Shown piece by piece: positions 5,791 through 22,406 of a stretch of 25,040 nucleotides of DNA. Each line of letters opens with the position of its first letter. Within the stretch, counting starts at the first letter, position 1. The notes under the pieces are model-generated. The model was not told the DNA's origin and did not search any database. It worked only from the letters and a program-made list of their open reading frames with translations. A program made the position numbers and the translations under genes. Origin of the DNA: a virus; the IMG/VR virus record IMGVR_UViG_3300043775_000908, positions 1-25,040 of that record; one strand, written 5' to 3'.

Positions 5791-6122
5791 ATTTGCAGCC
5801 AGTATTTAAAGATGTAAAAAATTTTAGTTGTGAAGATTTATATCTTCATTCTATAGGAGCACCTTCGGGCAAAGATATTTGGCTAACATGTCATGGAATT
5901 GCAAAAATGCTTATTGATAAAAACATTGCATATGGAGATTCTGCTTTAGATCCTGTTAGAATTTTTAGTAAATCAGATCCAGTAGAACAACTTAGAGTTA
6001 GAATTGATGATAAGTTAAGTAGACTTATGAAGGGTACGGACTATATTGGAGATAATGATATAGATGATCTTATTGGATATTTGGTTTTGCTTAAAATAGC
6101 AAAGGAAAAAAATGTCAACTGA
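5787..6122 (+). CDS. DUF1599/MazG-like nucleotide-metabolism protein
   Basis: A 111-aa protein with the signature of the nucleotide-modification-associated DUF1599 family, which is related to MazG-type all-alpha NTP pyrophosphatases. It has IAYGDSALDPVRIFSK, then RVRIDDKLSRLMKG, then DNDIDDLIGYLVLLKIA. The acidic residues in the DDKLSRL and DIDDLIGYL helices would bind Mg2+ in this fold. The expected role is hydrolysis or handling of a (d)NTP during phage DNA synthesis. It begins with ATGA on the HTH gene and overlaps TerS by 11 nt. Family recognition is from memory of the conserved pattern, and the substrate is not known. Confidence 0.68.
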   Translation: MNLQPVFKDVKNFSCEDLYLHSIGAPSGKDIWLTCHGIAKMLIDKNIAYGDSALDPVRIFSKSDPVEQLRVRIDDKLSRLMKGTDYIGDNDIDDLIGYLVLLKIAKEKNVN

Positions 6123-6648
6123 GACAGAATTAATTCAACACCTTGATGAAGTAAACAAAGTTGTTGCAGAGTATCTTAAGGGCCAAGATCCAACAAAAAT
6201 TTCTAAAGACTTGGACATGCCAAGAACTCGTGTTGTTGCATTAATTAATGAGTGGAAAGTCATGGCTTCCGCTAATGAAGCAATTCGTGCTCGTGCAAAA
6301 GAAGCACTTGCTGGAGCAGATGCACATTATAGTAAATTAATTACAAAATCTTATGAAGTTATTGATGAGGCATCAATGACAAATAATCTTAGTGCAAAAA
6401 CACAAGCAATTAAATTAGTTGTAGACATTGAAAAGTCTAGAATTGAAATGCTACAAAAGGCTGGACTTCTTGAGAATAAAGAACTTGCAGAAGAGATGGT
6501 TGAGATTGAGCGTCGTCAAGAAGTTCTTGTTGGTATTCTTAGAGACATTGCATCAGAACATCCAGAGGTTCGTGATTTAATTATGCATAGGCTTTCATCT
6601 ATTGCAAAAGAAGGCGAAGTGATTACAATTGTCCACGATGTTCAATGA
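6112..6648 (+). CDS. terS: terminase small subunit (TerS)
   Basis: A 178-aa helical protein directly upstream of, and overlapping, the large terminase. The N-terminus has an HTH-like segment (EYLKGQDPTKISKDLDMPRT), followed by long helices (residues about 55-150) with an amphipathic pattern suitable for the oligomerising ring of TerS, and a short C-terminal beta-tail (GEVITIVHDVQ) of the kind that contacts TerL. It would recognise the phage DNA for packaging. The call rests on gene order, size and domain order rather than on a strong signature motif. Confidence 0.8.
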   Translation: MSTETELIQHLDEVNKVVAEYLKGQDPTKISKDLDMPRTRVVALINEWKVMASANEAIRARAKEALAGADAHYSKLITKSYEVIDEASMTNNLSAKTQAIKLVVDIEKSRIEMLQKAGLLENKELAEEMVEIERRQEVLVGILRDIASEHPEVRDLIMHRLSSIAKEGEVITIVHDVQ

Positions 6649-8413
6649 CTTCCTTGAAGTATTAAAAGAAAATCATTTTATTGAAAAACCAGTTGACGTA
6701 AAAACATTTGTGCAATCACCAGACTATCTTGGTCAGCCACTACTTTCCGACATTCAATATGAAATAGTAGAGGCTATGAGCCAAATCTATCGTAAAGAAG
6801 ATCTTATAGAATTGATGGGGCAGGCTGAAGGACTAAACCATTTTAATAAATATACAAAGAATGAACTTATTCTGCAACTTGGCAAGGGATCTGGAAAAGA
6901 CTTTATATCTACAGTAGCATGTGCATATGTAGTATATAAACTTTTATGCCTTAAGGATCCAGCAACCTATTTTGGCAAACCTGCAGGAGATGCCATTGAT
7001 ATTATTAACGTTGCGGTTAACGCTCAACAGGCTAAAAATGTTTTCTTTAAAGGTTTTAAAACTAAGATTGAAAAATCACCATGGTTTGCTGGAAAATATA
7101 ATGCTAAAGCAGATTCTGTAGAGTTTGATAAAGCAATTACTGTTTATTCTGGTCACTCAGAAAGAGAATCGCATGAGGGATTAAACCTTCTTATGGCAGT
7201 ACTTGATGAGATTTCTGGTTTTGCAACAGAGGTTAATACTGGTAATGAACAGGGTAAGACTGCTGACAATATATATAAAGCATTTCGTGGTACTGTAGAT
7301 TCTCGTTTTCCTGATCTTGGTAAAGTTGTTTTGCTTTCATTTCCAAGATATCAGGGTGACTTTATTTCTCAAAGATATGAATCAGTAATAGCAGAAAAAG
7401 AAACTATTGAACGTACACATACATTTATTATGAATGAAGACCTACCACATGATGATCCAGGCAATCAATTTGAAATTTCATGGGAAGAAGACACAATATT
7501 GTCATACAAAATTCCGAGGGTATATGCATTTAAAAGACCAACGTGGGAAGTAAATCCAACACGTAAGATAGAAGATTTTAAACTAGCATTTTATACAGAC
7601 CTTGGTGATGCCATGATGCGCTTTGCGTGTATGCCAACCTATGCATCAGATGCATTTTTTAAACAAAAAGATAAATTAGAAAAATGTATGAATACTAGAA
7701 ATCCATTGGATCAATTTAGAAGGTTTGATGCAACGTTTAAACCAGATCCAGAAAAAGTATATTATATTCATGCTGACCTTGCACAAAAACATGATAAGTG
7801 TGCTGTTGCTATTGCACATGTTGATAAATGGGTTAACATTCAGGTTATTAAAGATTATGAACAGGTAGCCCCAATTGTTGTTGTTGATGCCGTTGCCTGG
7901 TGGGAGCCAAGAGCAGAGGGACCAGTCAATTTATCTGAAGTAAAGCAGTGGATTATTAATTTACGTAGAGAAGGTTTTAATATCGGCATGGTTTCTTTTG
8001 ACCGTTGGCAATCTTTTGATATTCAAAATGAGTTGCAGGCTGTTGGAATTAAAACAGAGACTGTTTCAGTTGCTAAAAAACACTATGAAGATTTGGCTAT
8101 GATGATTTATGAAGAGCGTGTTGCCATCCCAATGATTCCAATTTTACTAGAAGAAATGTCAGAGTTAAAAATAATGAAGGGAAATAGGGTAGACCACCCT
8201 CGTAAAAAATCAAAAGACTTGGCTGATGCGGTTTGTGGAGCGGTATTTGGAGCAATATCCCATACACAAAAGACTAATAATACAGAGATAGAAATTCACA
8301 CATGGAGTTCTTCTACAAGACTTGCAGAAAAACAGCAACGTATGGTAGAATTGGATAATCGGGAAATGCCTAACGATGTTAAGGACTTTCTAGATAAACT
8401 TAACTTAATATAA
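6638..8413 (+). CDS. terL: terminase large subunit (TerL)
   Basis: The packaging motor ATPase and headful nuclease. Counting from TTG 6629, Walker A is GKGSGKD at residues 85-91 (Asp after the Lys, as in some phage terminases) and Walker B is LMAVLDE with D193-E194. The RNase H-like nuclease acidic residues are D383 in IHADLAQ, D458 in VSFDRW and D533 in DLADAV. At about 590 aa it is full length. The start is either TTG 6629, with GAAGTGA at 6616-6622, or ATG 6638, which I list; both overlap terS. The following gene is a secreted protein, not the portal gene usually found here. Confidence 0.95.
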   Translation: MFNDFLEVLKENHFIEKPVDVKTFVQSPDYLGQPLLSDIQYEIVEAMSQIYRKEDLIELMGQAEGLNHFNKYTKNELILQLGKGSGKDFISTVACAYVVYKLLCLKDPATYFGKPAGDAIDIINVAVNAQQAKNVFFKGFKTKIEKSPWFAGKYNAKADSVEFDKAITVYSGHSERESHEGLNLLMAVLDEISGFATEVNTGNEQGKTADNIYKAFRGTVDSRFPDLGKVVLLSFPRYQGDFISQRYESVIAEKETIERTHTFIMNEDLPHDDPGNQFEISWEEDTILSYKIPRVYAFKRPTWEVNPTRKIEDFKLAFYTDLGDAMMRFACMPTYASDAFFKQKDKLEKCMNTRNPLDQFRRFDATFKPDPEKVYYIHADLAQKHDKCAVAIAHVDKWVNIQVIKDYEQVAPIVVVDAVAWWEPRAEGPVNLSEVKQWIINLRREGFNIGMVSFDRWQSFDIQNELQAVGIKTETVSVAKKHYEDLAMMIYEERVAIPMIPILLEEMSELKIMKGNRVDHPRKKSKDLADAVCGAVFGAISHTQKTNNTEIEIHTWSSSTRLAEKQQRMVELDNREMPNDVKDFLDKLNLI

Positions 8414-8430
8414 AAATAACAAGGAGAATA

Positions 8431-10113
8431 ATGAATTCATTTAAGAAAATTGCCCTAGGACTCGCTGCAGCCATGTCCTTTGGCGTCATGTCAGCACTTC
8501 CGACAAATGCTGCTGTCATTGCACCAACCTTGACAATTGATTCTGCTACAGATTCAATTATCGTAGGTGAGACTGCAACAGCAGTAGTTTCATTGTCATA
8601 TATTTCAGAAACATCAGCAGATACAGCAACAGTTTTATCCGCTATGTTTACACAGCCATCTACGGCTAATAAGTCTGCAACACTCACACTGCTTGAAACA
8701 AATACAGCAACAGTAGTAATTGCAGGAGATAGTTTGACTGCAAATGTTAACTCAACAATTAACACAGCAGGTTATGTAACAGCAAAGTTTACAGTTACTT
8801 TGGCTGCTCCAACAGTTGCTGGAACATATGTTGCAACAATTCTTACAACACGCCCATCAAGTGGTCCCTCTGTAACTTGGACAGTAACAGTTGGTGCAGG
8901 AGATACAACTCCTTCAGCATCAACAACAACTTCAATCCTTAATAGAGGCGAAGTAATTACTGCTACAGCAGATGATTCAGTGTTTGCTCCAAAGGTAGCA
9001 TCGTCAGATGCAGCAGCGGTAATTGTTCTTTCACAGAAAAATGCAGCAGGTAGAGGAACATCAGAATCACTTCTTGCTACAGTAACTGGTTCAGGTCTTG
9101 TTGGTTATGGCACAAATGCTACAACAATTGGATCAGCAGGTCGTTCTCTTGTAATACCATCAGGCAACTACATTGGTGTTTTTGCTGACGGTACAGCAGG
9201 AGTTGGAACAATCACTATTACAACACTTACAGGCACAGTTCTTGCAACAGAGACTGTAACATTCTACGGAGACATCGCTACAATCGTGGCAACTCCAGTT
9301 AAGTCTGTTATTTCAGTTGGTTCAAACGCAACCACTGTAAAGGCAGTTGCTAAGGATGCATCAGGCGTGACCGTTGGTGCTGGAACACTTTATGCTAATT
9401 CATCAGACTTGTCTGTAGTATCTGATTCAGGTACAGCAGTAGCAATTTCAAATGGTGAAGCACTATTTACAATTACTGGCGTTAAGGCTGGTGGTGCTGC
9501 AATTACAATTAGAAATGCAACAGGAACAATTATTTCTGCTCCAGTATCTACTCGTGTAGAAGCAGCAGCAGCAACTGTTAAGTTGACATTTGATAAGGAA
9601 ACATATCTTCCAGGTGAAGCAGCAACTATCAAGGTACAAGTTCTTGATGCAGCAGGTCTTCCAGTATCTGGAAAGACACACTCAGCACTATTTGCTACAG
9701 GTGGAATTTCTTCTACTTATGCATTTGGTTCAGGTTCAGATGCTCTTACAGCAACATCAGTTACAACTGATACAGAAACAGTAAAGTCATACAAGGTATT
9801 TATGCCATTGACAGAAAACACTGTAACAATTTCTGCAACAGGTGGAACATCATTGCCACTTGCTGGTCAGGTAGCAGTATCTGCAACAGCAAAGGTATCA
9901 AATTCTTCATCTAGCACAAATGCTACTCTTGCAACATTGGTTGCACAGATTACCGCAATGCAGGGAATCTTTGATAGTCTTAAAGCAGAACTTGCTGCTG
10001 AAAAGGCTAAAGCAATTGCTGATCGTGCTGCTTTTGTAAAACAGTACAACACACTTGCTACAAAGTGGAACAAGAAGAATCCAAAGGCAAAGGTTGCACT
10101 TCTAAAGAAGTAA
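8431..10113 (+). CDS. secreted Thr/Ala-rich surface (S-layer-like) protein
   Basis: A 560-aa protein with a textbook Sec signal peptide: basic n-region (SFKK), hydrophobic core (ALGLAAAMSFGVM), and a signal-peptidase site near residues 27-28 (PTNAA). The mature part is a chain of beta-rich, Thr/Ser/Ala-rich Ig-like modules (for example VGETATAVVSLSY, VTWTVTVG, and KLTFDKETYLPGEAATIKVQ), with almost no Cys. The last ~64 residues form a coiled-coil (LVAQITAMQGIFDSLKAELAAEK) and end in a basic tail. The layout resembles actinobacterial S-layer or surface proteins. G+C is higher than in neighbours (25 of 60 at 8881-8940), with strong preference for ACA, GCA and GTT, as expected for high expression. 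The ribosome-binding site AAGGAG is ideal. It lies between TerL and a terminator. It could be a virion surface protein or a host-surface mimic. Confidence 0.8.
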   Translation: MNSFKKIALGLAAAMSFGVMSALPTNAAVIAPTLTIDSATDSIIVGETATAVVSLSYISETSADTATVLSAMFTQPSTANKSATLTLLETNTATVVIAGDSLTANVNSTINTAGYVTAKFTVTLAAPTVAGTYVATILTTRPSSGPSVTWTVTVGAGDTTPSASTTTSILNRGEVITATADDSVFAPKVASSDAAAVIVLSQKNAAGRGTSESLLATVTGSGLVGYGTNATTIGSAGRSLVIPSGNYIGVFADGTAGVGTITITTLTGTVLATETVTFYGDIATIVATPVKSVISVGSNATTVKAVAKDASGVTVGAGTLYANSSDLSVVSDSGTAVAISNGEALFTITGVKAGGAAITIRNATGTIISAPVSTRVEAAAATVKLTFDKETYLPGEAATIKVQVLDAAGLPVSGKTHSALFATGGISSTYAFGSGSDALTATSVTTDTETVKSYKVFMPLTENTVTISATGGTSLPLAGQVAVSATAKVSNSSSSTNATLATLVAQITAMQGIFDSLKAELAAEKAKAIADRAAFVKQYNTLATKWNKKNPKAKVALLKK

Positions 10114-10128
10114 ACTAATCCAACAACT

Positions 10129-10158
10129 AAGGGAGTCATTAATTTGGCTCCCTTTTTT
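10129..10158 (+). terminator. rho-independent terminator
   Basis: AAGGGAG at 10129-10135 pairs perfectly with CTCCCTT at 10148-10154, extendable by a G-U and a C-G pair into the loop, and the stem runs into six T residues at 10153-10158. It lies 15 nt after the stop of the secreted-protein gene and would end transcription from the terminase operon. Confidence 0.9.
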
Positions 10159-13070: not shown

Positions 13071-13295
13071 ATGTCAAAACTACGCATATTCCTATTATCA
13101 ACTACTTTAGCCCTAGGACTAACATCCTGTGGCTATCAGGGTTTTTATAGATATCCATGCCAAAATCCAGAAAATTGGGAAAAGGCAGAATGTAATCCTC
13201 CAATTTGTGAGGCATCTGGAACATGCACAAAAGATATGATTAAAATAGATAGAGATTCAAACTTAAATACAACAGGGGGAACAACAAATGAGTAA
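13071..13295 (+). CDS. small lipoprotein
   Basis: A 74-aa protein with a type II signal peptide: MSKLRIFLL, hydrophobic core, and a lipobox LTSC with the lipidated Cys at residue 21. The mature part is only ~54 aa and holds four more Cys (PCQ, ECN, ICE, TCT), probably in disulfides outside the membrane. It reads GYQGFYRYPCQNPENWEKAE and on to a polar tail. It lies between the holin candidate and a second membrane protein in the lysis group. Roles such as a spanin-like factor or superinfection exclusion are possible; in a Gram-positive-type host an outer-membrane spanin is unlikely. No family is assigned. Confidence 0.75.
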   Translation: MSKLRIFLLSTTLALGLTSCGYQGFYRYPCQNPENWEKAECNPPICEASGTCTKDMIKIDRDSNLNTTGGTTNE

Positions 13296-13698
13296 ACAAA
13301 AATTAACTCCACAAGATTTAGATGCAAGATTAAAATTTATTTTAGGTATTACATTAGGATCAATCCTATTTCTTACATCAGTAGGAATTCTGTATGGTCT
13401 TCTTTTTGTAAGTCAACCAATTGGTGCACAATCAGAAAATGATAAAATGTTTTTTAATGTACTTGGTTCAGTTGCAACATTTATTACAGGAACACTTGCA
13501 GGTTTATTAATTGGTCAATCTGGTGCAAAAGATGTAATGTCAGCACAATTAGCCAATAAAGAAATGGATGCTAAGAATACACAAGCAGATAAAAAACTAG
13601 AAGCAGAGATTGATGCAACTGCAGCACGTTTGGCAGCAAAACCAGATGGAGCAATGCCAGAAGCACAACCAGTTGATACAGATTGGGATAAAGAATAA
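13288..13698 (+). CDS. membrane protein with cytoplasmic coiled tail, holin-like
   Basis: A 136-aa protein with two transmembrane segments, at residues about 17-40 (FILGITLGSILFLTSVGILYGLLF) and 52-70 (VLGSVATFITGTLAGLLIG). A long charged, Ala-rich helical tail (residues 75-125) ends in acidic residues. It starts 8 nt inside the lipoprotein gene with CAGGGGGA as ribosome-binding site and overlaps the endolysin by TAATG. Direct coupling to the endolysin makes it a strong candidate for holin or antiholin, alternative to the 57-aa protein upstream. The long hydrophilic tail is longer than usual for holins. Confidence 0.75.
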   Translation: MSKQKLTPQDLDARLKFILGITLGSILFLTSVGILYGLLFVSQPIGAQSENDKMFFNVLGSVATFITGTLAGLLIGQSGAKDVMSAQLANKEMDAKNTQADKKLEAEIDATAARLAAKPDGAMPEAQPVDTDWDKE

Positions 13699-14273
13699 TG
13701 GCAGAACAAGGTACAGCAGAACGTTTAATTGAAGTTGCTACAGCAGAGGTAGGAACCATTGAAGGTCCTAAAGATAATGAAACTAAGTACGGGGCTTACA
13801 CAAAGGCTAACTTTCAACCATGGTGCGGATCTTTTGTAAACTGGTGCGCTAATGAGGCTGGTGTAAAGGTTCCTAATACTGTTTATACTCCAGGTGGAGC
13901 ACAAGCATTTAAAAAAGCGGGGTCATGGATTGATGGAGATTTAGCAGACCCAGAGCCAGGGGATATAGCCTATTTTGATTTCCCTTCAGATGGTGTTGAT
14001 AGAATTTCTCATGTTGGAATTGTTGTAAAAGACAATGAAGATGGAACAGTCTGGTGCATTGAAGGAAATACTAGCCCAGATAAAAAAGGAAGCCAAAGAA
14101 ATGGCGGACAGGTTTCAAAGAAACTTCGTGCATTTAAGAAAAATAAACAAGGCGAAATGATATCAATAGTAGGATTTGGTAGACCTAAATTTGGCTCTAC
14201 CCCTGCGGGTACTGCTAAAAAGACTGCTAGTAAGCCTAAAACATGCTCAGCGTGTGGCCAAAGCATTAAATAA
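13698..14273 (+). CDS. CHAP-domain endolysin
   Basis: A 191-aa peptidoglycan amidase or endopeptidase. The CHAP catalytic Cys is C43 in PWCGSFVNWC, the His is H105 in ISHVGIVV, and the third polar residue lies in IEGNTS (E122/N124); PGDIAYFDF is the usual strand before the His. After residue 155 a Lys/Ser/Ala linker leads to a minimal zinc-ribbon half (CSAC, 183-186), an unusual C-terminus where a cell-wall binding domain would be expected. No signal peptide, so release through a holin is expected. It would cut the host wall at the end of infection. Confidence 0.88.
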   Translation: MAEQGTAERLIEVATAEVGTIEGPKDNETKYGAYTKANFQPWCGSFVNWCANEAGVKVPNTVYTPGGAQAFKKAGSWIDGDLADPEPGDIAYFDFPSDGVDRISHVGIVVKDNEDGTVWCIEGNTSPDKKGSQRNGGQVSKKLRAFKKNKQGEMISIVGFGRPKFGSTPAGTAKKTASKPKTCSACGQSIK

Positions 14274-14279
14274 AGGTAT

Positions 14280-14308
14280 TTGACTAAGTAAAAAGGGTTT
14301 GGTATACT
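14280..14308 (+). promoter_or_regulatory. sigma70-type promoter TTGACT-N17-TATACT
   Basis: TTGACT at 14280-14285 and TATACT at 14303-14308 are separated by exactly 17 nt, with a TGG before the -10. This is the best full promoter in the window. Transcription would start near 14315, leaving a 22-nt leader with AGGGGGA before the ATG at 14337. Confidence 0.85.
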
Positions 14309-14336
14309 TAAATAGTATATTCTAGGGGGATTTTTT

Positions 14337-14867
14337 ATGACTGTTCTGGCCGTTGTTCGTGATTCAGCAACTAATAAAATCTATATGGCTGGTGAACGTG
14401 GTGCCTCAGATGATAACACTATACTTTCTTTGACCGCTCCAAAAGTTTGGAAACTTGGACCATATTTAATTGGATATGCTGGATCTTTGGATGGAGAACG
14501 TATTCGTTATAATTTTAATCCTTATGTACCAGATATAAAAGACACAGATAAATTTATGCAAACTAAATTTATTAAACAACTAAAAAATTTTTATAATGAT
14601 TGGTGGGTTGATACTGGTAAAGAGGCTGATCTTGGTCTAATTGTTTGTATAAAAGGACAAATATATGAACACAATGCAGTTGATATGTCTTTATCTAAAT
14701 ATAATTTAGATTATTTAGCAATGGGTTCTGGGGCTGAATATGCTTATGGTTATTTGCATGCTACAGAAAAATCTAAAGATGCTCGTAAAAGAGTTGTAGG
14801 AGCAGTAAATGCTGCTATTAAATTTAGTCCAACCTGCATGGGTCCAGTTGACGTGGTAAGTATTTAA
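14337..14867 (+). CDS. HslV/20S-proteasome-like Ntn-hydrolase
   Basis: A 176-aa protein with the length and motif order of HslV and proteasome beta subunits. MTVLAVVRD places a Thr directly after the initiator Met, as in HslV, so Met removal would expose the nucleophile. YMAGERGAS matches the AGD-type loop. Lys36 (APKVWKL) fits the catalytic Lys. YLIGYAGSLDGERI matches the G-(F/Y)-AG loop, and YLAMGSGAEYAYGYL is the conserved GSG segment. CMGPVDVVSI closes the fold. It would form a ring protease or a related amidase. No ATPase partner (HslU, Mpa or ClpX type) is seen nearby, so it may borrow the host unfoldase or act alone. It has its own strong promoter. Confidence 0.8.
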   Translation: MTVLAVVRDSATNKIYMAGERGASDDNTILSLTAPKVWKLGPYLIGYAGSLDGERIRYNFNPYVPDIKDTDKFMQTKFIKQLKNFYNDWWVDTGKEADLGLIVCIKGQIYEHNAVDMSLSKYNLDYLAMGSGAEYAYGYLHATEKSKDARKRVVGAVNAAIKFSPTCMGPVDVVSI

Positions 14868-14876
14868 AGGTATACT
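14848..14876 (+). promoter_or_regulatory. sigma70-type promoter TTGACG-N17-TATACT, inside the 3' end of the previous gene
   Basis: TTGACG at 14848-14853 and TATACT at 14871-14876 are exactly 17 nt apart. The -35 lies within the last codons of the Ntn-hydrolase gene. The ATG at 14883 starts six nt after the -10, at the expected +1, so a leaderless mRNA is predicted; no ribosome-binding site precedes the ATG. Confidence 0.75.
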
Positions 14877-14882
14877 TATAAT

Positions 14883-15089
14883 ATGAATCATTCATATAAG
14901 GAAGATTTATCTCCAGAAGAAACAGAGTTTGGTATCTGGCTTGAAAACGGTATTGAAAGAGGTTGGGTAACACCACCTTACTGCAATACCCATGATGGTG
15001 GATACGAATATATGGGAGAAGAAGAACAAGAAGAGTGGGAAGCAGGGGGCGACCCGTGTTGTCATGTCATCAGATTGATGATATCTTAA
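14883..15089 (+). CDS. small acidic Cys/His protein (probable zinc binder)
   Basis: A 68-aa, strongly acidic protein. The core reads WVTPPYCNTHDGG, then an acidic run (GEEEQEEWEAGG), then DPCCHVIRL, so a Cys-x2-His and a Cys-Cys-His group could form one metal site. No membrane or signal sequence is visible. The start codon coincides with the predicted transcription start and has no Shine-Dalgarno sequence. The short hydrophobic end (IRLMIS) probably completes a beta-strand. It is the kind of small conserved protein common in actinophages; function unknown. Confidence 0.72.
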   Translation: MNHSYKEDLSPEETEFGIWLENGIERGWVTPPYCNTHDGGYEYMGEEEQEEWEAGGDPCCHVIRLMIS

Positions 15090-15104
15090 AAAATAAGGGG
15101 TAAA

Positions 15105-15776
15105 ATGAAAATAAAAAGTAAAGTTATTGGTACAATTTTTGGAGTAATTGCTTCATCTTTTGTATTTATTTCAGTTCCAGTTGTAGCAAATGCAGGAGAA
15201 TGTTCAGCATCAGATCCTTGTCAAACTTATGCAGTGTTAGATAACGCAAATAACGTTATTAATGTTATTGTTTGTCAACCATCAGTTTGCGGTAGTGGAA
15301 CTTTTGCAGGTAATCGTGTTATTTTGCAAGTTGCTGCTAACCCACAAACAAATGATCCAAGTGGAACAAGTGGTCAAATGACAAGGCCAGATGAAAATAA
15401 AGTTGTTACATATTCAGATAATGGTATTTTTACTGTAAAAAAAGATGAAACTGTTGTTCAAACTATTGCAGTACCAGAAATTCAAACTCAAAATGTAAAC
15501 AATACAACAACAATAACAATAACATCTATGCAGGCACAGTTTATTGATACTACTACTGGCTCTGTAAAAGTTGATGCAACTCAAACTATTAATTCTAATA
15601 CAGTAGCATCTGGTTCTACTATAAATAATACAAATACTATCAAAGAAACTGTTGTTTTTGAAGAAAGAAAAACAGAGCAAGAAATATCATCTATACTTTT
15701 GCAAAGAAATCTTACTTTACTACAATCAAAAATTAATAGACTTTTACTACTTTTAGATGAGTGGATAAAAAAGTAA
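15105..15776 (+). CDS. secreted protein with disulfide-rich N-terminal domain
   Basis: A 223-aa protein with a Sec signal peptide (MKIKSKVIG, core GVIASSFVFISVPVV, site ANA at about residue 31). The mature start has four Cys (ECSASDPC and VCQPSVCG) around the strand TYAVLDNANNVINVIV, a small beta domain. The rest is Thr/Asn/Ser-rich beta sequence, ending in a helix (SILLQRNLTLLQSKINRLLL) that probably trimerises or anchors by coiled-coil. AAGGGG at 15096-15100 is a good ribosome-binding site. It is the third secreted protein in the window and may act at the cell surface or on the virion. Family not recognised. Confidence 0.74.
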   Translation: MKIKSKVIGTIFGVIASSFVFISVPVVANAGECSASDPCQTYAVLDNANNVINVIVCQPSVCGSGTFAGNRVILQVAANPQTNDPSGTSGQMTRPDENKVVTYSDNGIFTVKKDETVVQTIAVPEIQTQNVNNTTTITITSMQAQFIDTTTGSVKVDATQTINSNTVASGSTINNTNTIKETVVFEERKTEQEISSILLQRNLTLLQSKINRLLLLLDEWIKK

Positions 15777-21358: not shown

Positions 21359-21646
21359 TTGAAACAGCACTTATGGAAAGATCAAGCCGTATGTTTAGGG
21401 ATGGATACAGACTTATTTTTTGATAAATATGAAGATAATGTTAACGAAGTATCTAAAAAAATTGATGCGCTTTGTAAGCAGTGCCCAGTAAAAAAAATAT
21501 GTTTTGCCAATGGTGTTTCTGGAAAAGAATGGGGTGTATGGGGTGGTATATACTTAGAGGGTGGAGAAATTTCAAGAGAGTTTAATAAGCATAAAACTAA
21601 AAAAGATTGGTCTGAAACATGGCAATCGTTAACAATGGAAGGGTAA
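21359..21646 (+). CDS. whiB: WhiB-like transcriptional regulator
   Basis: A 95-aa iron-sulfur regulator. The four cluster cysteines are C12 (AVCLG), C39 and C42 (LCKQCPV) and C48 (KKICFA), and the hallmark GVWGG turn follows at 59-63. WhiB-type proteins occur only in Actinobacteria and their phages, so this is the best host marker in the window. They bind the principal sigma factor (region 4) and alter promoter choice, so this copy may redirect or repress host transcription. It starts at TTG 21359, needed to include the first Cys, with AGGGA at 21348-21352 well spaced. A basic C-terminal tail (NKHKTKKDW) could contact DNA. Confidence 0.92.
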   Translation: MKQHLWKDQAVCLGMDTDLFFDKYEDNVNEVSKKIDALCKQCPVKKICFANGVSGKEWGVWGGIYLEGGEISREFNKHKTKKDWSETWQSLTMEG

Positions 21647-21650
21647 TAAA

Positions 21651-22406
21651 ATGATTATACAAATTATAGGTTTACCAGGATCTGGTAAAACAACATTAGC
21701 AAAAGAGTTAGCAAAAAAAATTAATGCAATTCATCTTAATGCTGATGAAGTAAGATCTGACTTAAGCAAAGATTTAGGATTTACAACAGAAGATAGAATT
21801 GAGCAGGCTCGTCGTTTAGGAGCAATTTCTAGACTTCTTTCAAATCAAGGACATCATATTGTTGTAGATTTTGTTAATCCTACAAAAGAAACAAGAAATG
21901 CTTTTGGAAAACCAGATAGGCTGATTTGGATGAATACATTTGAAAAAAGTAAATATCCAGATACAGATAAAATGTTTCAATATCCAGAAACTTTTGATAT
22001 GTGTTTTGATAAAACAATTCCAATGGAAGAAAGAATTAATATTATTACCGAAGGCTTTGGTCTTCATGACTGGAGTAAACCAACTACACTAATGCTTGGT
22101 CGTTATCAACCATGGCATGAAGGACATCATGCACTTTATAAAGAAGCACAAAATCGTACAGAGCAAGTAATGGTTGGTGTTAGAAATACACATGGAACAA
22201 CAGAAAAAGATCCTCTTACCTTTGATGAGGTAAAAGAATATATATCAAAAGATTCATATATGGATAAAGCAATGGTAATTAAAATGCCTAACATTACCAA
22301 CATTGTATATGGTCGTGATGTTGGATATAAGATTGAGCAAGTAGATTTGGGGGCAGACATTCATGCTATTTCGGCTACGCAAAAACGTAAAGAGATGGGT
22401 ATCTAA
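21651..22406 (+). CDS. bifunctional APS-kinase-like P-loop kinase / cytidylyltransferase-fold nucleotidyltransferase
   Basis: A 251-aa fusion. The N-terminal half is a P-loop kinase with Walker A GLPGSGKT (7-14), LNADEVRSDLSKDLGF (the APS-kinase D-x-D-N-x-R region in changed form), DRIEQARRLG and a VDFVNPT strand. The C-terminal half, from about residue 143, has LGRYQPWHEGHHALYKEA with the catalytic HxGH at 156-159 and ISATQKR at 240-246, the signature of nucleotidyltransferases such as NMN adenylyltransferase and cytidylyltransferases. The two domains occur in NadR in the opposite order. The substrate is not deducible: NAD salvage or activated-sugar/sulfate chemistry are options. The adjacent DUF2061 protein favours an APS-kinase-type link. 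Confidence 0.85.
   Translation: MIIQIIGLPGSGKTTLAKELAKKINAIHLNADEVRSDLSKDLGFTTEDRIEQARRLGAISRLLSNQGHHIVVDFVNPTKETRNAFGKPDRLIWMNTFEKSKYPDTDKMFQYPETFDMCFDKTIPMEERINIITEGFGLHDWSKPTTLMLGRYQPWHEGHHALYKEAQNRTEQVMVGVRNTHGTTEKDPLTFDEVKEYISKDSYMDKAMVIKMPNITNIVYGRDVGYKIEQVDLGADIHAISATQKRKEMGI

Follow-up and report, generated by a model that had tools for sequence, protein, structure and literature searches.

A host-derived, secreted surface-type protein in an exchange slot behind the terminase gene of a Stanwilliamsviridae-related phage

Introduction

A phage-encoded protein of the S-layer type has already been published, as an annotation accompanied by a postulate. The OM43 methylophage Melnitz carries a putative S-layer protein that, in the passage devoted to it, is postulated to alter the cell surface against superinfection (PMC9004378). 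The Llp proteins of T5 and BF23 are described as lipoproteins blocking one outer-membrane receptor (PMC4728585). On the host side, acI is described as outnumbering all other groups in most freshwater lakes, IMCC26103 being an acI-A4 strain (PMC5301498), and an article that equates acI with Nanopelagicales ascribes its microdiversity to predation by phages (PMC10202952). In the literature searched, with bioRxiv preprints outside the scope and few subscription papers, we found no account of a slot behind the large terminase gene (terL) or of an acI S-layer; PMC6802176, PMC12143481, and PMC11039613 mention S-layer and Ig-like zero times.

Here we describe IGP, a secreted, S-layer-like protein encoded behind terL in a 25,040-nucleotide stretch of viral DNA (IMG/VR record IMGVR_UViG_3300043775_000908, hereafter the window; Table 1). 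New here is a slot whose content is swapped recurrently and has homologs at a host locus linked to a sigma gene; no precedent was found in the literature searched. We give an even chance to the reading that IGP is a captured, phage-adapted surface protein of acI/Nanopelagicales that remodels the coat of the infected cell, most likely excluding phages.

Table 1. Positions of the features discussed, in the window except where a host locus is given
Feature	Positions	Strand	Basis and remarks
ORF directly 5' of terL, likely small terminase	6112..6648	+	Named by position; conserved before terL in syntenic loci
terL, large terminase subunit, Stanwilliamsviridae type	6629..8413	+	PHROG terminase large subunit
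Shine-Dalgarno-like AAGGAG before IGP	8421..8426	+	Sequence
IGP, secreted S-layer-like protein, post-terL exchange slot	8431..10113	+	ATG start, 560 aa
Predicted Sec-type leader of IGP, aa 1-27	8431..8511	+	Simple sequence features; similar across three slot families
Mature IGP core, about four predicted Ig-like beta domains, aa 28-490	8512..9900	+	AlphaFold2, Foldseek; limits approximate
C-terminal helical module of IGP, type A	9901..10110	+	KWNKKNPKAKV tail; pI 10.1; common to slot family 1
Intrinsic terminator behind IGP, stem-loop and T tail	10129..10154	+	Fold stability against shuffles
Second secreted protein, 885 aa	10216..12873	+	Leader, weak fn3 match, C-terminal hydrophobic stretch, then RRRR
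Host homolog of IGP in IMCC26103	L139 6507-8579		Colinear homology, leader, composition, C-terminal helical module

Results

The terL product is 54-55% identical, over its full length, to the best Stanwilliamsviridae homologs, which belong to Streptomyces phages. In one of these phages, Yaboi, genes for DNA polymerase III, a RecA-like protein, a resolvase, a Cas4-like exonuclease, and RuvC precede terL in this order, and the window agrees. Yaboi has its portal and capsid genes at 24.7-29.0 kb, and its terL is located at 69.2 kb; for Stanwilliamsviridae, the portal gene is about 43 kb upstream of terL. Fifteen IGP-bearing contigs were searched for the Yaboi-type portal and capsid, giving matches in eight and nine of them, respectively; most of the others are short, and one (the L081 record) is of another type. 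Seven of the eight portal-bearing contigs, all related freshwater ones, encode the portal on the strand of IGP, from a start 38-44 kb upstream of it. The eighth contig (G300) has its portal gene 69.6 kb downstream of IGP, an arrangement consistent with the others only on a circular map. Since the window starts 6.6 kb before terL, the portal gene is not expected within it. The initial annotation had noted that no portal or capsid gene is recognizable in the 25 kb, and 17 Yaboi structural proteins indeed gave no tblastn match to the window at 1e-2, with terL, the control, matching at 54%. Its suggestion that an S-layer-like gene stands where the portal gene should be is not borne out. We reject this placement, as terL ends a replication/recombination block and the portal/capsid/tail block is positioned approximately 40 kb upstream in Yaboi and the related contigs. 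Nothing is missing after terL, because the structural block is normally that far upstream in this phage family.

The start codon of IGP lies 17 nt past the end of terL, and in all 78 related loci whose start is readable, a Shine-Dalgarno-like motif precedes the gene. Its predicted leader is MNSFKKIALGLAAAMSFGVMSALPTNA/AV, and the mature part has no hydrophobic stretch exceeding that of the leader. The core is free of Cys, rich in Thr, Ser, Ala, and Val (Thr plus Ser, 27%), and has a pI of 4.7. Neither Pfam nor PHROGs gave a family at E ≤ 0.01, so the label "Ig-like" is based on AlphaFold2 and Foldseek. In the AlphaFold2 model (mean pLDDT 72.5, pTM 0.45), about four beta domains are followed by C-terminal helices; the predicted domains are modelled moderately well, but their mutual arrangement is not. 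The Foldseek matches are generic tandem-Ig proteins, mostly other than S-layer proteins. The S-layer proteins Sap and SbsC appear at ranks 11, 18, and 21, but such predicted fold matches prove nothing alone, the fold being generic. The viral matches are also generic, and several are tail proteins. A known S-layer anchoring domain such as SLH is absent from IGP at a Pfam E ≤ 0.01, though some S-layer proteins have no SLH-type domain. The term "S-layer-like" is suggested by secretion, composition, and the generic Ig fold, all as predicted; we know of no lattice for the host homolog. IGP is not a chance ORF, because at least 491 viral stretches encode relatives, while a search of INPHARED phages with IGP gave no match. 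The terminator behind the gene has a fold z of -4.4 (0/200 shuffles equally stable), and a terminator-like element lies 3' of IGP in 66 of 74 related loci. Judging from the leader, the predicted fold, and this hairpin, the secreted Ig-like ORF with a strong terminator, as first annotated, is real.

Among the best 80 of the at least 491 relatives, IGP lies directly behind terL in 73, with gaps of 11-43 nt; three loci start too close to tell, and four have IGP elsewhere (L064, L065, L066, and L081). Taking the best 80 of at least 592 terL relatives, a leader-bearing ORF is found directly behind terL in 75, after 11-46 nt. No slot ORF was seen in the other five (L184, L206, L232, L250, and L256), where only 14 to 179 nt follow terL. 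The 75 ORFs comprise 34 IGP-like ones (family 0), 30 of family 1, which is shorter, and 11 of family 2. The families were assigned by their cores, since leader similarity alone triggers the IGP profile. All 75 leaders have an AxA-like site and at least two K/R residues, and 71 reach a hydrophobicity of 1.6 or more. Leaders are alike across the families (MNSxK...AxA), whereas the cores are unlike: family 1 cores gave no core match to families 0 and 2 at 1e-5, and families 0 and 2 are weakly similar along one stretch, with 35% identity over 162 aa for the best pair. A terL tree built quickly with FastTree (76 rows, the 75 slot loci and the window) requires at least 16 changes of slot family, the least possible number being 2 and the mean of shuffled assignments 32.1. 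Related phages tend to share a slot family, yet switches are frequent. It is thus well supported that the post-terL position is an exchange slot, where contents have been swapped repeatedly between related viruses.

IGP also occurs outside the slot. The L066 record has a terL of this phage family with other genes behind it, and its IGP is located about 15 kb downstream. In the L081 record (136 kb), the terL, portal, major head protein, and tape measure are different ones, and searches for the Yaboi-type portal and capsid gave no match; its IGP is 79% identical to that of the window over the first 491 residues. L081 thus places the same protein in an unrelated phage, and IGP is mobile. This observation bears on the possibility that IGP is a virion component, either an Ig-like decoration or a fibre protein. 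The place directly behind terL and the tail proteins among the viral Foldseek matches are in its favor, and Ig-like domains are common on the virions of tailed phages. We nevertheless consider it improbable, as the same IGP occurs with different structural genes in L081, the slot content is exchangeable and often an unrelated secreted protein, and simple features point to an export leader in 75 slot ORFs. In addition, the best E value of IGP against the 17 Yaboi structural proteins is 0.5, with no PHROG match. Published virion proteomics showing a relative as a capsid or decoration protein, an outcome the initial annotation had considered, were not found. Its alternative of a structural component is thus disfavored by the leader and the mobility, while that of a surface protein captured from the host has stood, as described below.

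The codon usage of IGP differs from that of the 39 other ORFs in the window. AAG is used at 23 of 28 positions in IGP versus 132 of 591 in the other ORFs (p = 1.2e-10), TTA at 1/39 versus 202/500, and ATA at 1/32 versus 175/554; GC3 shows no rise. The host homolog likewise favors AAG (25/30). The biased codons suggest high expression, and the initial annotation was right about the codon pattern and about IGP belonging to the terL transcript. In all eight pairs of the window and a relative, the dS of IGP (0.13-0.49) is lower than that of terL (0.42-1.47), though exchange or codon bias may each give such values. The dN/dS of the whole gene is 0.14-0.33 in these pairs, and amino-acid changes are constrained. 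Slot exchange and low dS could also be explained if IGP were a passenger, an exchangeable moron of no benefit to infection that is kept by easy recombination at the slot. The constraint on the protein speaks against this explanation, as does the filled slot in 75 of the 80 terL loci (the remaining five being short of sequence after terL), and we find it very hard to credit.

The C-terminal tails of 78 full-length IGPs were classified into types B (40), A (29), and N (7), with two left unclassed, of which the L066 tail resembles type B. A single-protein scan of genome contigs with IGP had given 87 pattern matches and no relatives. Using the last 188 aa of type-B relatives as the query, the C-terminal alignment A3 matched four genome loci. 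One of them (L142, Planctomycetota) was set aside, as its match covers 31 residues only. The homolog in IMCC26103 (CP015604) aligns with positions 3-568 of the 568-position model with an E value of 6e-93. IMCC26103 is unclassified at NCBI; we take the order searched as Nanopelagicales on the basis of PMC10202952, where acI and Nanopelagicales are treated as equivalent. Profile A1 matched 78 of 296 genomes of this order at E ≤ 1e-3, some in the tail only. In a class-wide draw, 25 of 394 genomes matched; 24 of them were already in the order search, and the remaining one (G648) matches in the tail only.

Forty host regions were examined, comprising three earlier loci and 37 more. In most of them, the locus consists of a sigma gene, the surface gene, a Wzy-like gene, and often a UDP-sugar dehydrogenase gene, and the order is the same for IGP-type and family-2-type genes. 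Some atypical regions are cut by contig ends. There are also a sigma gene without an adjoining profile match (L304), a partial IGP match within a much longer ORF (L306), a region without any locus gene (L308), and surface genes without a Wzy-like gene behind them (L141, L275, L282, and L305). Tandem sigma/surface-gene pairs are seen in L141. The host gene is chromosomal, since several of its contigs span 1.16-1.51 Mb. The sigma protein (L139 5137-6504 and syntenic loci) is of the ECF type with sigma-70 regions 2 and 4, and its long C-terminal extension, as read from the sequence, looks membrane-spanning with an outer domain. Sigma matches occur in 93 of the 296 genomes, IGP matches in 78, and both in 65 (Fisher p 7e-30). 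No ECF-type sigma gene is found beside IGP in the window, where the neighbors are terL and the second secreted protein, as expected for a captured copy.

Family 2 homologs are present in 4 of the 296 genomes and lie at the sigma locus in L272, L274, and L275; in L273, no sigma gene was seen within its 5.6 kb. Family 1 homologs are present in eight, six of them weak, and two regions (L276 and L277) have the homolog at another chromosomal place with an identical aminotransferase-like neighbor. Family 1 resembles a different, small host protein. All three slot families have chromosomal homologs in Nanopelagicales, and the origin of IGP as a host-derived, secreted surface-type protein is well supported.

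The descent of the cores was analyzed by IQ-TREE with 69 rows, families 1 and 2 being left out. The 39 phage rows are 30 representatives (L002 standing for the window) and nine more of family 0, and the 30 host rows were chosen for a readable start and a profile E ≤ 1e-20; no row was lost on trimming. One clade holds 37 of the 39 phage rows (100/100), and L219 and L220 fall among the host rows (98/84). At least two host/phage changes are forced on this tree, though its detail is unsure given long branches and a midpoint root. Phage IGPs have at least two origins. The direction was probably from host to phage, because host diversity is wider and the host locus is fixed.

The tails of IGPs vary independently. 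Types B and N are up to 91% identical to host tails over 45 aa, a value inflated, like the other C-terminal identities, by Ala-rich helices, whereas identity between phage cores and the sampled host cores does not exceed 45%. The type-A tail of the window is 46-47% identical to slot family 1 over about 70 aa, and its best host identity is 0.22 over 45 aa. No true counterpart was found in the 296 genomes; two weak matches (2/296) were rejected, as the ORFs look like molybdate-binding proteins. Anchoring of the tail to a host-specific component is therefore plausible for most relatives and unsupported for IGP of the window. The host-like tails of many relatives, the membership of IGP in the same family as the host protein, and the high output suggested by the codons would also suit coat maintenance, in which the phage supplies the surface protein once host expression is shut down and keeps the thin envelope intact or ungrazed until lysis, with no exclusion. 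This explanation is unlikely in our judgment, since frequent replacement by unrelated proteins fits competition better than housekeeping, the cores have diverged from the sampled host cores as noted, and family 1 resembles a different host protein.

The 885-aa protein is the downstream neighbor of IGP in relatives, an association only. Its end resembles a membrane stop-transfer anchor. In relatives, the C-terminal part is conserved and the N-terminal part variable, and the L066 copy has PA14 and a weak fn3 match. At 13071-15776 of the window, genes for a small putative lipoprotein, a membrane protein, a CHAP-domain enzyme, a weakly proteasome-like protein, and a secreted protein stand in a row, a possible envelope and lysis block. 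The membrane protein and the CHAP-domain enzyme, encoded in the same direction as IGP, and the host-type tail of many relatives could indicate an aid to lysis or release, in which the host layer is weakened by a foreign coat subunit, letting the CHAP enzyme act or the debris disperse. The terminator between IGP and these downstream genes and the different place of IGP in the L066 record speak against it, and we think it quite improbable.

Other genes near IGP or in the window should be noted. Two glycine-rich fibre-like proteins are encoded directly behind IGP in L081 (11823-15279), and a secreted protein with a metalloprotease-like motif, by sequence reading, is encoded downstream of IGP in L066 (13235-14479). 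In the window, a WhiB-like regulator (21359-21646) scores above the Pfam cut-off, as expected of an actinophage. The ORF at 21651-22406 has a kinase-like N-terminal half fused to a cytidylyltransferase-like part and perhaps encodes a bifunctional nucleotide enzyme.

Discussion

In the reading that we prefer, a captured coat protein that excludes phages, IGP would be made late, together with the packaging genes, and exported by Sec. The C-terminal helical module would hold it on the cell, where it would join or displace the host coat. The altered coat may hide or replace the receptor, so that the infected cell and its debris stop adsorbing phages, and the result would be superinfection exclusion and protection of the progeny. 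The frequent swapping of the slot might then represent competition over which coat excludes whom. Each step from late expression to exclusion is inferred. Three points favor exclusion: an exchangeable gene is in keeping with phage competition, protective surface products of phages exist, as described for Llp of T5 (PMC4728585), and a phage S-layer protein has already been postulated to act in this way in the description of Melnitz (PMC9004378).

We further propose, more tentatively and at somewhat less than even chances, that the position is a coat-switching slot of freshwater actinophages, each of which carries one of several coat genes there. Exchangeable host-derived coats, many with host-matched tails, would stop rivals and the phage's own progeny from adsorbing, as a protein counterpart of serotype conversion, and the slot could feed alleles to the hypervariable locus of the host.

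Often-swapped phage copies of a host surface protein would tie the abundance of acI directly to the microdiversity ascribed to its phages. IGP also names the host sigma locus as a candidate phage receptor or shield, and metagenomic phage contigs numbering in the hundreds gain a marker of their host.

Comparison with known systems places the locus as follows. Stanwilliamsviridae (Yaboi, BillNye, Stigma, and Samisti12) share with the window a terL product of 50-55% identity and, in Yaboi, the replication/recombination block ahead of terL. They differ in what follows terL, namely HNH, peptidase, or small hypothetical genes and tRNAs, with no large secreted protein or other comparable gene annotated there in these four phages. 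Sap and SbsC have a tandem Ig-like fold as in the IGP model; the resemblance is one of predicted fold, and the fold is generic. Llp of T5 and BF23 is likewise a phage surface product that protects the infected cell and presumably the progeny, a job shared by unrelated proteins, but the Llp proteins are lipoproteins directed at one receptor, and the description of them does not mention homology to a host coat protein (PMC4728585). Melnitz, likened here by its description, also encodes an S-layer-type protein, but it is a gammaproteobacterial phage with a single such gene, and neither an exchange slot nor a host locus features in that description (PMC9004378). The acI sigma-locus protein differs from phage IGPs in being chromosomal, located beside an ECF-type sigma gene, more diverse, and, in the 296 genomes, without a type-A tail. 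It resembles them in colinear homology, leader, and composition, and in the helical module types B and N found in many relatives.
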